In this document: piece by piece, positions 14,951-21,675 of the stretch
Position numbering within the stretch: position 1 is the first letter of the stretch
Layout of the letters: the number at the start of each line of letters is the position of its first letter
NCBI GenBank assembly: GCA_016930015.1
Contig: JAFGHR010000059.1
Location: 1 to 64,000, forward strand
DNA length: 64,000 nt
Direction: 5' to 3'
Source: Anaerolineae bacterium
GTDB taxonomy: Bacteria > Chloroflexota > Anaerolineae > Aggregatilineales > Aggregatilineaceae
Program-made: the position numbers and the translations under genes
The notes under the pieces: generated by a model
Seen by the model: the letters and a program-made list of their open reading frames with translations, nothing else
Databases searched by the model: none
What the model was told of the DNA's origin: nothing

Positions 14951-17173
14951 TTAGGGCTCGCACGTGATCCCCTCGCGGCGGCTGATGGCGACGATCGCCG
15001 GGCGGTGATCGGATGCGTTGGCCGCTTCGGGACTGATGTCGATCAAAACGCCGCTGAAGGGAAGTTGATACACCCACAGGTAGTCATAGCGCGCTGCCGT
15101 GCCATCCACCAGATAAACGGTGTTGGCGGTTTCGGCGCGCAGCCCGGCGAAGGGGTCTTTGATGCCGGGGTTATCCAACTCGTTCATGCGCAGCCGCTGG
15201 TAGAGCGGTGAGTCCGGGATGTAATTAAATGTGCCGCCAATTAACAAACGGTTGTTCCAATCGGGCACATTACGCGCTGCGATCCAGTTGAGCATGGCAT
15301 CATGCTGCCTGTTCTGGTCCTGATCACCTTCGGTGACCGGCTGCCCGTCCCGTTCGGATACGCGGAAACCCAGCCACGCGTTATAAACGTGCAGATCGCC
15401 GAGTGTCGCATTGTCGGGATCGTTGGCGAGTGTATCGACGTCAAGCGTGACGTGCATCACGGCAGCTTGATTCCCGTCGCTGGGAAGCAGCAAGGCTTCG
15501 GTATCTACAATTGGAATCCGCGAGAGCACGGCCAGGCCCTGTAGTTTTTCGTTCTGCGGGAAAAACGCGGATTCCATGTCCAGGCGCCGCGCTAACCACA
15601 TCACCTGGTCAACGCCAAAACTGGCCAGCCGCCCGGTTTCGATCTCTTGAAGCAGCACGATATCCGCGCCGTTCAACTCGATGATCTGGGCCACGTCTTC
15701 GAGGTTTGAGTTAAAGAACTGCGAGTAGCCGCCATGTATATTGTACGTAGCCGCGCGCAGACAGTCGGGATTGAGTGGGCGGCGCACCGTGGCATCACCG
15801 GCGATGACTGCCCCGGCAAAACTTACGCCGAGCACCAGGACAAGCGCCAGCAGGGTATGCACCGTTTTGCCGCCGCGCCAGGGAATCCGCCTGCGCGACA
15901 GGATCATGGGGATGCACGCTAACAGCGCCGCGATCAAAGCCAGTCCCAGCCCCATATCACGGAACGAGCGTAAGACATCGCTCACATTCTGGTACGGTTC
16001 GGACAGATCGCGCACATAGGCGTAGTCATATGTGAAATAATCGCCGAGCGCCAATACGCCAAAACTGAATACACCGGCTAACACCATCAAGCCGGTTGGA
16101 TTACGGCGCGGGGTGCCGACCTGGACCAGCCACCACAGCGTCAGGCCGGCCAGAAATTGCACCAGCACGAGCGCGATCCCGGCGGGGATGCCCTCGTAAC
16201 GCTGCCCGACGACCAGCAGCAGCCCCAACAGCAGCATCCACAGCCAACCGCGCCACGCCCCGTCAAACATGCCTGCGAACCGGCGCGCGATTTCGCGCAC
16301 TTCCGGCACCAGCGGCAGCGCAGTTGCCGCCAGCAGCCACGGCACCAGCCCGGTATAATCCACGCCGGACCAGTGCGCGACCACGTTGGGCAGTGAGAGC
16401 AGAGTCAGTTCCAAAAACAGGATTCCACCCAGCGCCAGCCCGCCCCACAAACTCAGTACGCCGCGCTCTGAGCCGGGGCGCGTGCGGCGGCTGTCGCGGT
16501 GCGGACGGTACGTGTTCGCCGCCGCGGCGGCTTCCTGTTCGGCGGCTTGCTGCGTTTCCAGCCGTGCCGTCTGGCGTTCGACAAACCACAGCAGCAGAGT
16601 CAGCAGAATCAGCAGCACCGAGACGACGGCAATCAGCAGACCCATTTCGACATCGACCCGGTCGGCAAACCGGAGCGTGTAATCGCTTTGCCAGGTGTGA
16701 TCAACCGTGTTATCCAGGGCACGGATGACCTGTTCGGCGGTCAGGCCCACCAGTAACATAATCGGGAAAAACGTATGCCGCCGGATGATGACCAATGCCA
16801 GGTAAAGCAGGCCCGCCCCGACGACTAACGCGGTGGCTGGCACTTCGAGATCAGGCGTTTGCAGGGCCATCGAACGACCCAGCGCGACCAGGATCACGGT
16901 GATCGACAGGCTGATCCGCCAGCGGCTGATAACAATCGCCAGCAGCGGCAGCGCCAGCAGCCCTAATGCCAGCAGATCATGTTGAACTGTCGCCACTTCA
17001 ACAACGCCCGGCACGTCGATCAGTGCGTCAGGGTTTGGGACACGATCGACCAGGTCGGCGCTGCTGGCATGGGCGTACAGCGTCGCATACAGGAAACGCA
17101 CGCCCTGGATCAGGAACAGGCCGACGGTTCCGGCTTCCAAAAAACGGAGAAGATCGCGTCGAAATAACGGCAT
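14951..17173 (-). CDS. multi-TM protein with C-terminal endonuclease/exonuclease/phosphatase domain
   Basis: Many TMs, then RAATYNIHGGYSQFFNSNLEDVAQIIELNGADIVLLQEIETG...ASDHRPAIVAI. Confidence 0.85.
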   Translation of the reverse strand: MPLFRRDLLRFLEAGTVGLFLIQGVRFLYATLYAHASSADLVDRVPNPDALIDVPGVVEVATVQHDLLALGLLALPLLAIVISRWRISLSITVILVALGRSMALQTPDLEVPATALVVGAGLLYLALVIIRRHTFFPIMLLVGLTAEQVIRALDNTVDHTWQSDYTLRFADRVDVEMGLLIAVVSVLLILLTLLLWFVERQTARLETQQAAEQEAAAAANTYRPHRDSRRTRPGSERGVLSLWGGLALGGILFLELTLLSLPNVVAHWSGVDYTGLVPWLLAATALPLVPEVREIARRFAGMFDGAWRGWLWMLLLGLLLVVGQRYEGIPAGIALVLVQFLAGLTLWWLVQVGTPRRNPTGLMVLAGVFSFGVLALGDYFTYDYAYVRDLSEPYQNVSDVLRSFRDMGLGLALIAALLACIPMILSRRRIPWRGGKTVHTLLALVLVLGVSFAGAVIAGDATVRRPLNPDCLRAATYNIHGGYSQFFNSNLEDVAQIIELNGADIVLLQEIETGRLASFGVDQVMWLARRLDMESAFFPQNEKLQGLAVLSRIPIVDTEALLLPSDGNQAAVMHVTLDVDTLANDPDNATLGDLHVYNAWLGFRVSERDGQPVTEGDQDQNRQHDAMLNWIAARNVPDWNNRLLIGGTFNYIPDSPLYQRLRMNELDNPGIKDPFAGLRAETANTVYLVDGTAARYDYLWVYQLPFSGVLIDISPEAANASDHRPAIVAISRREGITCEP

Positions 17174-17425
17174 GGCACGGATTTCCTCGCAGTGTAGACA
17201 GGCTGCATACGAGTTGTTTGCGAGTTGATCGGTTATCAACTCGCTGATGTGTATGATTTTACGCACTGTTGGGGTTCTCGCCAGCCGGGTTATTACGCGC
17301 CGCGTGAATCACCCGCACAAACAGCGACCGGAAGTAAAAATAGGCTTGTGTTGAGGCTGACTACCTCTTAACCGGGTTTGGGTTATAATACTCAGAATTT
17401 TACCTACCCAAAAAGGAATGTGCTT

Positions 17426-19411
17426 ATGGAGACAGTAGATATACTCCTCACCGGCGGCATGGTTCTCACGATGAACGGTGTTATGGACCGCTATGCCGAT
17501 GGCGCGGTCGCGATTCGGAATGACAGCATTGTGGCGGTTGGTCCGACAGCGACGATTCAAGCCGATTACCGGGCCAAAGAGATTATCGACTGCCGTGGCC
17601 AGCTTGTGATGCCTGGCCTGGTGAATGCCCACACCCATATGCCCATGACGCTGCTGCGGGCTATGGCCGACGACTTGCGGCTTGATGTGTGGCTGATGGG
17701 TTACATGATGCCAACCGAACGCGAATTTGTTAACGAAAAATTCTGCCGGTTGGGCACCGAGTTATCATGTGCGGAAATGATCAAGGGTGGCACAACGCTG
17801 CTGGCCGACATGTATTATTACGAAAGCGAGGTCGCGGCCACGATTGCCGGGGCCGGGCTGCGTGCCATATGTTCTCAAACCGTGTTGAAGTTCCCGGCGC
17901 CGGATGCCGATAGTTATGAAGACAGCCTGGCCTATACGCGCGAGTTCGTCCAGGAATGGAAAGGCCACTCGCTGATCGTGCCGTCGGTGGCGCCGCATGC
18001 GCCGTACACGTGTACCGACGAGATTCTCCAGGCGTGTGCTGCTATTGCCATCGACTATGGCGTGCCGCTGCATACGCATATCCTCGAAACCCGCCAGGAA
18101 GCCGACGATAGCTGGCGCGAGTTCGAAAAGAAGGTCGTCAACCGCGTGGCCGATCTGGGTGTATTTGAAGCAAAAACGATCGCTGCGCATTGCGTACACG
18201 TCGATACCGAGCAGATCATGCTGCTCAAACAACACGGTGTCGCCGTGGCCCATAACCCGACCAGTAATCTGAAACTGGCCAGCGGTATTGCGCCCGTCAA
18301 AGAGATGCTCGAACGCGGTATAAAACTGGCCGTTGGGACGGATGGCGCCGCCAGTAACAACGACCTGGATATGTTCGAGGAAATGCGGTTGGCGGCCATG
18401 CTGGTCAAGGGCGCGACGTTTGATCCGGTTGTGCTCCCGGCCAAAGATGCGTTGTTGATGGCAACCCGCTGGGGCGCGGAAGCGCTGGGGCTGGGCGAAA
18501 TCACCGGCAGCCTGGAACCCGGCAAACGCGCCGACCTGGTCATCTTGCGGCGTGACCCGCTGCACAACGTGCCCCACTTTGAGCGCGATCCCCACAGCGT
18601 GTATTCCCAGGTCGTCTACGCGGCTCACGCGTCGGATGTACAGCATACGATGGTCAACGGCCAGTGGCTCATGCGGGATCGGGAGCTGCTGACGCTGGAC
18701 GAGGATCGTATCCGGTCCGAGGCGTCCGGTATGGCCCGCCAGATCGACCAGTTTTTGATCGAACGCGAGGACAATGTATTAAACAAGCTGGTGGCCATCG
18801 GCGGAGTACACCAGGAGGAGAGTTTCGAAATCCAGGTCAAGGCACGGATCGAGGACGACAGCCTGATTCGCGACTTGTTGGAGCATTCGCTCGTGAGTGT
18901 CGTGCGGCATAACCACTACCGGCAGTATGACACATATTTCCTGTTCTCTGACGAACAGCAGGGGCGTGTGCGCTACCGCGAGGATGATTTTATCGATGAG
19001 CACGGCCAGCTTATCAGCGCTCGCACGCGGTTAACCTACACCATTCCAGACAAGGCCGCGGAATTTGATGAGGCGGTGCTGCTGTCGCATTCGCGGTTTA
19101 TCGCGCCTGCTGATCGTCCGCTGCGCTTTTACCGCGAGTATTTCCAGGCCAACCGCGAATGTGAGATTCAGAAAGACCGGCTGCGCTGGCATATTCTGTA
19201 CAAAGGGGTGCTGTTCTACCTCAACTATGATCGCATCATGGTGCCGGAAACCGACGCGCGTTTTATCGAGATCAAATCGCGCACGTGGTCGAAGGGGGAT
19301 GCTGAATACAAGGCGGCGCTCACCACTGAAATGTTGACCGATATCTTAGGAATTCCCAGCGATGCACGTGTACGGCTGGAGTACGTGGATTTGTGTCCCT
19401 ATAGTCCGTAG
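17426..19411 (+). CDS. SsnA-like/TrzA-type amidohydrolase fused to a C-terminal CYTH-like domain
   Basis: VMPGLVNAHTHMPMTLLRAMADDL, VGTDGAASNNDLDMFEEMR; C-terminal FEIQVKARI...YDTYFLFSDEQQGRVRYREDD. Confidence 0.85.
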   Translation: METVDILLTGGMVLTMNGVMDRYADGAVAIRNDSIVAVGPTATIQADYRAKEIIDCRGQLVMPGLVNAHTHMPMTLLRAMADDLRLDVWLMGYMMPTEREFVNEKFCRLGTELSCAEMIKGGTTLLADMYYYESEVAATIAGAGLRAICSQTVLKFPAPDADSYEDSLAYTREFVQEWKGHSLIVPSVAPHAPYTCTDEILQACAAIAIDYGVPLHTHILETRQEADDSWREFEKKVVNRVADLGVFEAKTIAAHCVHVDTEQIMLLKQHGVAVAHNPTSNLKLASGIAPVKEMLERGIKLAVGTDGAASNNDLDMFEEMRLAAMLVKGATFDPVVLPAKDALLMATRWGAEALGLGEITGSLEPGKRADLVILRRDPLHNVPHFERDPHSVYSQVVYAAHASDVQHTMVNGQWLMRDRELLTLDEDRIRSEASGMARQIDQFLIEREDNVLNKLVAIGGVHQEESFEIQVKARIEDDSLIRDLLEHSLVSVVRHNHYRQYDTYFLFSDEQQGRVRYREDDFIDEHGQLISARTRLTYTIPDKAAEFDEAVLLSHSRFIAPADRPLRFYREYFQANRECEIQKDRLRWHILYKGVLFYLNYDRIMVPETDARFIEIKSRTWSKGDAEYKAALTTEMLTDILGIPSDARVRLEYVDLCPYSP

Positions 19412-19533: not shown

Positions 19534-21675
19534 TTATACGATCCGTTCGCGGATCGCGGCGCTGGCGTAGTCCAGCACGGACACCACGATCGCAATCGCC
19601 AGCACGGCTACGCCCGCTTGTCTGTAACGAAGCAGGTTGATCTGTTGTTGCAGCAGGAAGCCGATACCACCGCCGCCCACAAAACCGATGATGGTGGACA
19701 TACGCACGTTGATATCCCAGCGGTACATGGTAAACGCGATGTACGGCGGCACAATCTGCGGTACGACGGCGTAGACGATGGTCTGGAGCCGGTTAGCGCC
19801 CGTTGACTGGATCGCTTCGATCGGCCCGGCGTCGATATTTTCGACCTGTTCGGAATACAGTTTGCCCAGCGCGGCGACCGAGTGGAGGGTTAACGCCAGC
19901 ACGCCCGCAAACGGCCCGACGCCCACCCAGATCACGAAGACGATGCCCATGATCAGCGGCTCGATGGAGCGCAGCGTGTTAAGAATGGTGCGCGCTGTGT
20001 TATACAAGGTCATACCTAGCGGGAACGGTGTTTGTGTGCCGGACAGCCCACCGGCTGCACCGCCCAGTACAGCGCCAACGAGCGCGGCGTTAGCTACGTA
20101 GGTTTGCACGTCGAACAGCCCTAGATCGGTGGTGAGTTGTGATGGCAGCCGCTGGTCAACAATAGCCCGCATCAAGTCCATGAACAACGCGACGACCACA
20201 AAGGTCACGATCGCGCCGATCCAGAAAATGACGGTGCGGATCACGCGTTCGGTATCGCTCTGGTCGGCCTGAATCCGGCCCACCGACCGGGCCAGCAGCC
20301 CGATATGCTCAACCAGCAGTAACGCCAGTTGGCCGCCGATGACCGCCGCCACAATAGGTGTGAGCAGGGTAAACAGCGCGGCCTGGGTACCAACATAGGC
20401 TACACTGGCCAGCAGAATCGCACCGCTGAGCAAGCCCAGGATCGCGCCCAGGATATGGCTGGGCAGCCCGTACACGTGGCGCAGCGCACTTGCGGCCAGG
20501 GTTGATCCCACCGATCCCAACCAAAACGCACCGCCAATGGCGGCAATAATCGTTATGGTCAGGTCAACCAGTTCACCCAGCGTGCCTACAAAACTACCCA
20601 GGTCTTTTAGCAAACCCTCTTCAAGCGATTCACTGGCTTTGATGCCGATGCCACCCAGCGCTCCCAGCACAAAAACGAGTACGACCAACATGAACACATT
20701 GATCGCGATTGTGCGGGCACGGCTGGCAAGACCGCTCAGGGGGTAGCGTGAAACCAGACGTGTGAGCACGCTAAAAGCGGCGATCAGGACCACTGCCCCG
20801 GCAATTCCCGGTATGATGTCCTTGCCCCAATCAACGCCCAGTTCACCGATCGGGCCGAGAAGCTGTGCCCCCAGGAAACCGCCCACCGGCAGTAACACAA
20901 AACCAACCAACACATTGCCCATCGGCAGGTTGATCTGGCGCATCAGGTTACGTGCGGCAATAAAGCTCAGCGCAACCGAAATCGGTAATGCCAGCGTGGT
21001 TGCCATCAGCGCCAGGAATATCGTTTCGACCATCTTGTCGAGCACAGTATCGGTTGTGTCGCTGAAGCGCGGCCAGCCCGTCGGTGAAATGGTCTGTATT
21101 TCCAACTGTTGAGTATTACCTGACAGGCCGCGCCCTTTGGGAACCTTCAAATTCACTTTGAAATAACCGGAGCCATCGACATCAAATATCGATTCATCAC
21201 TGGTCGTCTCGACGTCTGTCGCGTCCTCGACCAGCTTAAACGGCATGTTTTGGCCCTCCTCACGGACAAGCTGAATCCGGGCAATCGCGCTGTTGGGGAA
21301 GTTGCGTCCCTCAACTGTGATCACCTCGTCCATGTCGGCGCATGGCGGCGAAACTAACATGTAGGTATCGCCTTCAATGTTGATCCGTTCATCAGGCAAT
21401 TCGCCATCGGGACAGCCGATCTGGAATTCGACAAAGAAAGATTTGTCATCCTGGTCCCGTGTAAAAATGTCGGGCGACAGCAGTTCGCGCATGGCGCGTG
21501 TTACTGACGCTTGCCGCGTTTCATCCTGCACTTCCTCCAGGCTGATTTCCGTCGTATTCCAGCCATAGGCGTAAACGATGATGCCCACGACGACAGCTAA
21601 CACGGTCAGCAGGGTGCGCAGCGCTCTTTTGGATGGGGAAGAAGAATGATTATTGGTATCCATACAGCCTCTCAA
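19534..21675 (-). CDS. phnE: phosphonate-type ABC transporter permease, enlarged (PhnE family)
   Basis: C-terminal PhnE signature (SIEPLIMGIVFVIWVGVGPFAGVLALTLHSVAALGKLYSEQVENI...); N-terminal extracytoplasmic region and long TM insert. Confidence 0.88.
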   Translation of the reverse strand: MRGCMDTNNHSSSPSKRALRTLLTVLAVVVGIIVYAYGWNTTEISLEEVQDETRQASVTRAMRELLSPDIFTRDQDDKSFFVEFQIGCPDGELPDERINIEGDTYMLVSPPCADMDEVITVEGRNFPNSAIARIQLVREEGQNMPFKLVEDATDVETTSDESIFDVDGSGYFKVNLKVPKGRGLSGNTQQLEIQTISPTGWPRFSDTTDTVLDKMVETIFLALMATTLALPISVALSFIAARNLMRQINLPMGNVLVGFVLLPVGGFLGAQLLGPIGELGVDWGKDIIPGIAGAVVLIAAFSVLTRLVSRYPLSGLASRARTIAINVFMLVVLVFVLGALGGIGIKASESLEEGLLKDLGSFVGTLGELVDLTITIIAAIGGAFWLGSVGSTLAASALRHVYGLPSHILGAILGLLSGAILLASVAYVGTQAALFTLLTPIVAAVIGGQLALLLVEHIGLLARSVGRIQADQSDTERVIRTVIFWIGAIVTFVVVALFMDLMRAIVDQRLPSQLTTDLGLFDVQTYVANAALVGAVLGGAAGGLSGTQTPFPLGMTLYNTARTILNTLRSIEPLIMGIVFVIWVGVGPFAGVLALTLHSVAALGKLYSEQVENIDAGPIEAIQSTGANRLQTIVYAVVPQIVPPYIAFTMYRWDINVRMSTIIGFVGGGGIGFLLQQQINLLRYRQAGVAVLAIAIVVSVLDYASAAIRERIV

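Follow-up and report, generated by a model that had tools for sequence, protein, structure and literature searches.

What becomes of a triphosphate tunnel when it is joined to a nucleoside deaminase: does it cleave its ligand, transfer a phosphate, sense a metabolite, or bind no small molecule at all? CYTH/TTM proteins are classed almost entirely as enzymes, and the question is raised by a gene in a 64,000-nucleotide stretch of DNA from an Anaerolineae bacterium (contig JAFGHR010000059.1, positions 1 to 64,000; the window), where positions 17426..19411 of the plus strand encode a 661-amino-acid fusion of a deaminase-type amidohydrolase and a CYTH/TTM-like domain. An earlier note on this DNA had proposed such a fusion from the letters and their translations. 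Our computational analysis finds that it is real: the frame is uninterrupted, the start is shared with homologues, and the same fusion is present in 71 of 101 close relatives and in 244 of the 396 genomes of the class.

The fusion gene, its distribution and its neighbours

The ATG at 17426 has an AAAGGA ribosome-binding-like sequence just ahead of it, the frame stays open through a TAG ending at 19411, the start residue of the protein is that of its homologues, and orthologues of about 660 amino acids are found in many genomes. The protein consists of an amidohydrolase domain (amino acids 1-440; 17426..18745, plus strand), a helical linker (amino acids 441-462; 18746..18811, plus strand; helices 426-448 and 451-459 in the AF2 secondary structure) and a tunnel domain (approximately amino acids 463-640; 18812..19345, plus strand). 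Both domains are confident in the AF2 model of the full-length fusion (mean pLDDT 85.4, pTM 0.71), and the best structural matches of this model are MTA/SAH-type deaminases, with a TM-score of 0.93 of the target.

Could the two halves have been brought together by a frame artefact or by assembly? Single open frames of about 660 amino acids across many genera rule this out, and the isolated frame artefact that the earlier note had named as a danger to its proposal is not borne out by a phyletic survey. Of 301 genomes sampled across the phylum, 62 carry the fusion, 29 of them outside the class, and these out-of-class carriers include single-contig genomes of 5,258,541 and 5,801,598 bases as well as a 6,346,587-base contig. 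The tunnel domain sits, with few exceptions, in an open frame of 650-750 amino acids, the short frames that were inspected lying at contig ends. Named records with the fusion are Chloroflexota, mainly Anaerolineae MAGs, and the matches in a contig scan of close relatives are all Chloroflexi, Anaerolineae, Anaerolinea or Thermoflexus; no plasmid-borne fusion was found. When deaminase domains are placed in a maximum-likelihood tree, those from fusions group in one clade with support of 100/99, which rules out a recent or scattered fusion; the sole unfused row within this clade (L138, genome G007) is a gene running off a contig end. The best fit is a single old fusion with vertical inheritance and with losses here and there (genus g35, for example). 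In other words, the gene is an ancient fusion of an intact nucleoside deaminase and a CYTH triphosphate-tunnel domain, carried by two Chloroflexota lineages.

No operon or neighborhood conserved across the fusion family was found; there are local associations only, with no link to a triphosphate ligand. Many loci of the order to which the window belongs have, upstream of the fusion gene and divergent from it, a membrane protein of the endonuclease/exonuclease/phosphatase type. In the window, a 771-amino-acid protein (14951-17266, minus strand) has a long hydrophobic-rich N-terminal region and a C-terminal endonuclease/exonuclease/phosphatase domain, and several genomes of this order have its relatives in the divergent upstream position. 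Several out-of-class genomes (L121, L123, L128 and L129) have a dephospho-CoA kinase (CoaE) gene directly downstream on the same strand, and a gap of 8-10 bases in L121, L128 and L129 suggests co-transcription of the two genes in these genomes. On the other side in the window, next to PhnC and PhnD, is a 713-amino-acid phosphonate-type ABC permease (19534-21675, minus strand) with a long N-terminal extension; it matches PhnE (TIGR01097) in two stretches, the best being residues 543-712, and seems to be an extended or duplicated permease of unusual form.

The deaminase half and SAM by-products

The amidohydrolase domain is readily placed. PF01979 (Amidohydro_1) matches residues 60-414 with 241.7 bits (E 1.7e-71), the nearest PDB entry is the Chromobacterium MTA/SAH deaminase 4f0r (E 5.6e-95), and Pseudomonas MTA-type deaminases are also among the nearest structures. 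The earlier note had called this half an SsnA/TrzA-type amidohydrolase; amidohydrolase it is, and the subtype gives way, with SsnA profiles scoring 210-218 bits as against 354-454 for PRK09045, PRK06038 and PRK07228. On profile scores, the domain is better stated as a member of the MTA/SAH or 5'-deoxyadenosine deaminase branch. It matches the MTA/SAH deaminases (4f0r, 4dyk/4gbd and TM0936 1p1m; PRK09045, PRK06038 and PRK07228) over its full length, at 34-39% identity across the domain and with the zinc and catalytic residues alike. Unlike them, the fusion protein bears a C-terminal tunnel domain, groups in a clade of its own and misses every NCBIfam equivalog cut-off (454 vs 540 for PRK09045; 427 vs 609; 354 vs 522), such that a named substrate cannot be read off from these scores.

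What, then, does the deaminase act on? The zinc and catalytic residues H69, H71, H218, E221, H255 and D306 are invariant in 104 of 104 full-length fusions, and so are W89 and E98, which are of the nucleoside-binding type. From family and residues together, we infer that 5'-modified adenosines are the likely substrates, not nucleoside triphosphates; the earlier note had suggested that the deaminase could act on nucleotides or a signalling metabolite. In TM0936, two arginines bind the SAH carboxylate; they are absent from the aligned places in the fusion deaminase, which would favor MTA or 5'-deoxyadenosine over SAH. The proposed reaction would be the metal-dependent deamination of adenosines modified at the 5' position, with 5'-methylthioadenosine and/or 5'-deoxyadenosine, by-products of S-adenosylmethionine (SAM) chemistry, as the most likely substrates.

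SAH hydrolase and members of the purine nucleoside phosphorylase family are present in all 30 genomes checked, with or without the fusion, and this rules out the lack of either as the explanation for the gene. Additionally, one can ask whether the deaminase serves an S-inosylhomocysteine route, in which deamination of SAH is followed by cleavage with an inosyl-preferring SAH hydrolase. Methanocaldococcus has such a pathway, and its deaminase is a homologue (PMC10978960). Among the fusion-bearing genomes sampled, however, every SAH hydrolase with a readable nucleobase motif has HxTxE, never HxExK, and HxTxE marks the SAH-preferring form of the enzyme (PMC10978960); this motif makes the S-inosylhomocysteine route very improbable for these organisms. 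Outside of the fusion family, a Monoglobus replicon (L226:24-2246) carries genes for a purine nucleoside phosphorylase, LuxS, an amidohydrolase and purE consecutively. This row is possibly a cluster for salvage through MTA/SAH deamination, and the position of the stand-alone homologue beside purine nucleoside phosphorylase and LuxS agrees with a role in SAM by-product salvage.

The tunnel half and its altered metal site

CYTH is the sole match of the last ~200 residues, at a score for the window protein (16.3 bits) below the PF01928 cut-off of 23.2, which would be too little evidence by itself. The domain is matched by 19 of 23 aligned homologues (best E 4.3e-7), and a whole-genome search places five fused orthologues above the cut-off, at 23-35 bits; G592, G557, G025 and G126 pass at 28-35 bits, G001 clears the cut-off only together with its neighbors in frame, and G008 fails. 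A search of the PDB with the tunnel-domain sequence gave no relevant match. An AF2 model of the domain, built from the family alignment (mean pLDDT 87.3), has eight long strands and helices in the order beta1-alpha-beta2-...-beta8-alpha, which is that of CYTH. Foldseek ranks the archaeal triphosphatase SaTTM first among PDB entries (7ns9, E 2.4e-7), followed by class IV adenylyl cyclases, plant and animal TTMs, and the Mediator subunit Med18; probabilities are 1.00 to SaTTM, AC-IV and ThTPase, and TM-scores to known TTMs are moderate, at about 0.5-0.67. Judged by this model, the C-terminal domain has the CYTH/TTM tunnel fold, and the tunnel that the earlier note had asked of a structural model is present.

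The appearance of Med18 chains among the best fold matches is of some consequence, as the TTM-like fold of Med18 appears to be a structural or protein-interaction module that has no small-molecule ligand, and the CYTH-fold part of the fusion might be a module of the same kind. We consider this unlikely. Conservation is highest at the charged tunnel residues, with 28 positions above 99% in 104 sequences, and a scaffold would not need them.

Which residues are these? Strand beta-1 carries E468-I-Q470-V-K472 (18827..18841, plus strand), strand beta-3 carries R516-x-R518-E-D520 (18971..18985, plus strand; RxRxD in canonical proteins), strand beta-6 carries K583-x-R585-x-R587 (19172..19186, plus strand; canonical KxR) and strand beta-8 carries E615-I-K617 (19268..19276, plus strand). 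All of the residues numbered here, and N600 and D602 as well, never vary among 106 distinct fused domains. The first strand is therefore ExQxK rather than ExExK in 106 of 106, and the last is ExK rather than ExE. The earlier note had read the first strand as close to ExExK; a CYTH-like strand it is, with the qualification that its third position is an invariant glutamine. These two equivalences come from profile alignments (hhalign, HMMER) with stand-alone CYTH proteins, whereas the middle strands (RxR, KxR) are paired by secondary-structure order and not by sequence. In the stand-alone CYTH proteins of the same genomes, ExExK, RxRxD, KxR and ExE are all invariant. The unbroken conservation of E468, K472, R516, R518, K583, R585, D602 and E615 means that the fused tunnel is strongly constrained rather than a remnant in decay.

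The meaning of the two replacements can be gauged from characterized enzymes. Metal 2 of E. coli YgiF, the proposed activator of the attacking water, is bound by Glu4, Glu6 and Glu162, and metal 1 by Glu160; activity suffers from the substitutions Glu6Ala and Glu160Ala (PMC4641920). When both motifs are aligned by sequence, Q470 and K617 are the equivalents of Glu6 and Glu162, and E615 is the metal-1 glutamate (Glu160 in YgiF, Glu169 in AtTTM3), which is invariant in characterized TTMs. In other words, the fused tunnel retains the metal-1 glutamate and has Q and K in place of two glutamates through which characterized triphosphatases hold their second, catalytic metal (PMC4641920, PMC8233210). 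The changes from ExExK to ExQxK and from ExE to ExK imply that the fused tunnel has lost this second site. Its sequence is that of a constrained tunnel with no site 2, which sets it apart both from canonical triphosphatases and from decayed copies of them.

Might the tunnel nonetheless be a working PPPi or NTP triphosphatase, so that one protein clears both PPPi and a 5'-nucleoside, each a by-product of SAM chemistry? The CYTH fold and most of the tunnel residues are there, as they are in SaTTM, YgiF, AtTTM3 and thiamine triphosphatase, with which the domain shares the predicted fold, the strand order, the metal-1 glutamate, RxR, KxR and D. It differs from these enzymes in having ExQxK for ExExK, ExK for ExE, and a deaminase as its partner rather than CHAD or a kinase; with Q and K at the Glu6 and Glu162 positions in every copy, and given what Glu6Ala does to YgiF (PMC4641920), such activity is quite unlikely. 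Moreover, a CYTH protein with unchanged ExExK is already encoded in the same genomes: in that of the window it is a separate, stand-alone copy with both ExExK and ExE intact (L001:1486-2106), and most other sampled genomes have related stand-alone copies, which would leave the fused tunnel free to specialize. Given these substitutions, the earlier note's proposal that the domain acts on triphosphates as a CYTH enzyme is not supported in the form in which it was put.

Other named tunnel families fit no better. The class IV adenylyl cyclase (CyaB) structure 2fjt is among the top fold matches, and the signature of that class is a small residue at the central arginine position and replacement of the second glutamate of ExE by alanine (PMC8233210); the fused domain, in contrast, keeps the central arginine (R516 and R518 are invariant) and has K617 instead of alanine. 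The W/YxRxR motif of thiamine triphosphatase is likewise missing from most members, position 514 being R in 99 of 106 and W in 2 of 106.

The VTC polyphosphate-polymerase domain (PF09359) is the more instructive comparison. In yeast, the polyphosphate polymerase Vtc4p lacks site 2 and works on site 1 only (PMC4641920). Bacterial VTC-domain proteins share E-x-K on the last tunnel strand, as seen in each of eight compared from several Chloroflexota genomes (L227-L234). The fused tunnel might thus be a single-metal phosphotransferase of the VTC kind, with an NTP as the donor of a gamma-phosphate and, e.g., polyphosphate or the nucleoside product of the deaminase as the acceptor. However, none of 23 fused members matches PF09359 even with E-values allowed up to 10, the first strand is ExQxK as opposed to the Rx[E/D]xK of VTC proteins, and the C-terminal SKYC-type motif of the Chloroflexota VTC proteins is lacking by inspection; we regard a phosphotransferase of this kind as improbable.

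A putative one-metal sensor

The most likely reading, to which we give about an even chance, is an active deaminase that carries a ligand-sensing, one-metal tunnel. The tunnel would keep its triphosphate-gripping residues and the metal-1 glutamate while lacking the water-activating second metal site, and because of this combination it most likely binds rather than hydrolyses. Replacement of the second site in every copy suggests that a phosphorylated ligand is sensed or bound and not destroyed. Weighing against this reading, Q and K could also serve a different chemistry, the TM-scores to known TTMs are moderate, the middle strands are paired by order, and the gene neighborhood offers no link to a triphosphate ligand. 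We infer both the ligand and the regulatory role: the tunnel would most likely hold a triphosphate-bearing ligand with one metal, for example ATP or another NTP, tripolyphosphate or polyphosphate, and its occupancy would be coupled to the deaminase.

Both parts of this protein are of known kinds. The earlier note knew of no description of the fusion, and our search of the open-access literature likewise found no paper on a CYTH-amidohydrolase fusion; the fusion and its invariant ExQxK...ExK tunnel appear to be undescribed there. Automatic annotation of such fusion proteins as "adenylate cyclase" or "triphosphatase" would be mistaken. Widely conserved and vertically inherited, with its catalytic metal site consistently replaced and its partner an intact enzyme whose substrate can be guessed, this family lends itself to asking whether the tunnel can act as a sensor or a one-metal transferase. 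Tentatively, and at somewhat less than even chances, we propose that a nucleoside deaminase is regulated by a tunnel turned one-metal sensor (or phosphotransferase), in Anaerolineae as well as in a second lineage of Chloroflexota, and that the tunnel may thereby link the salvage of SAM by-products to the triphosphate or polyphosphate state of the cell.
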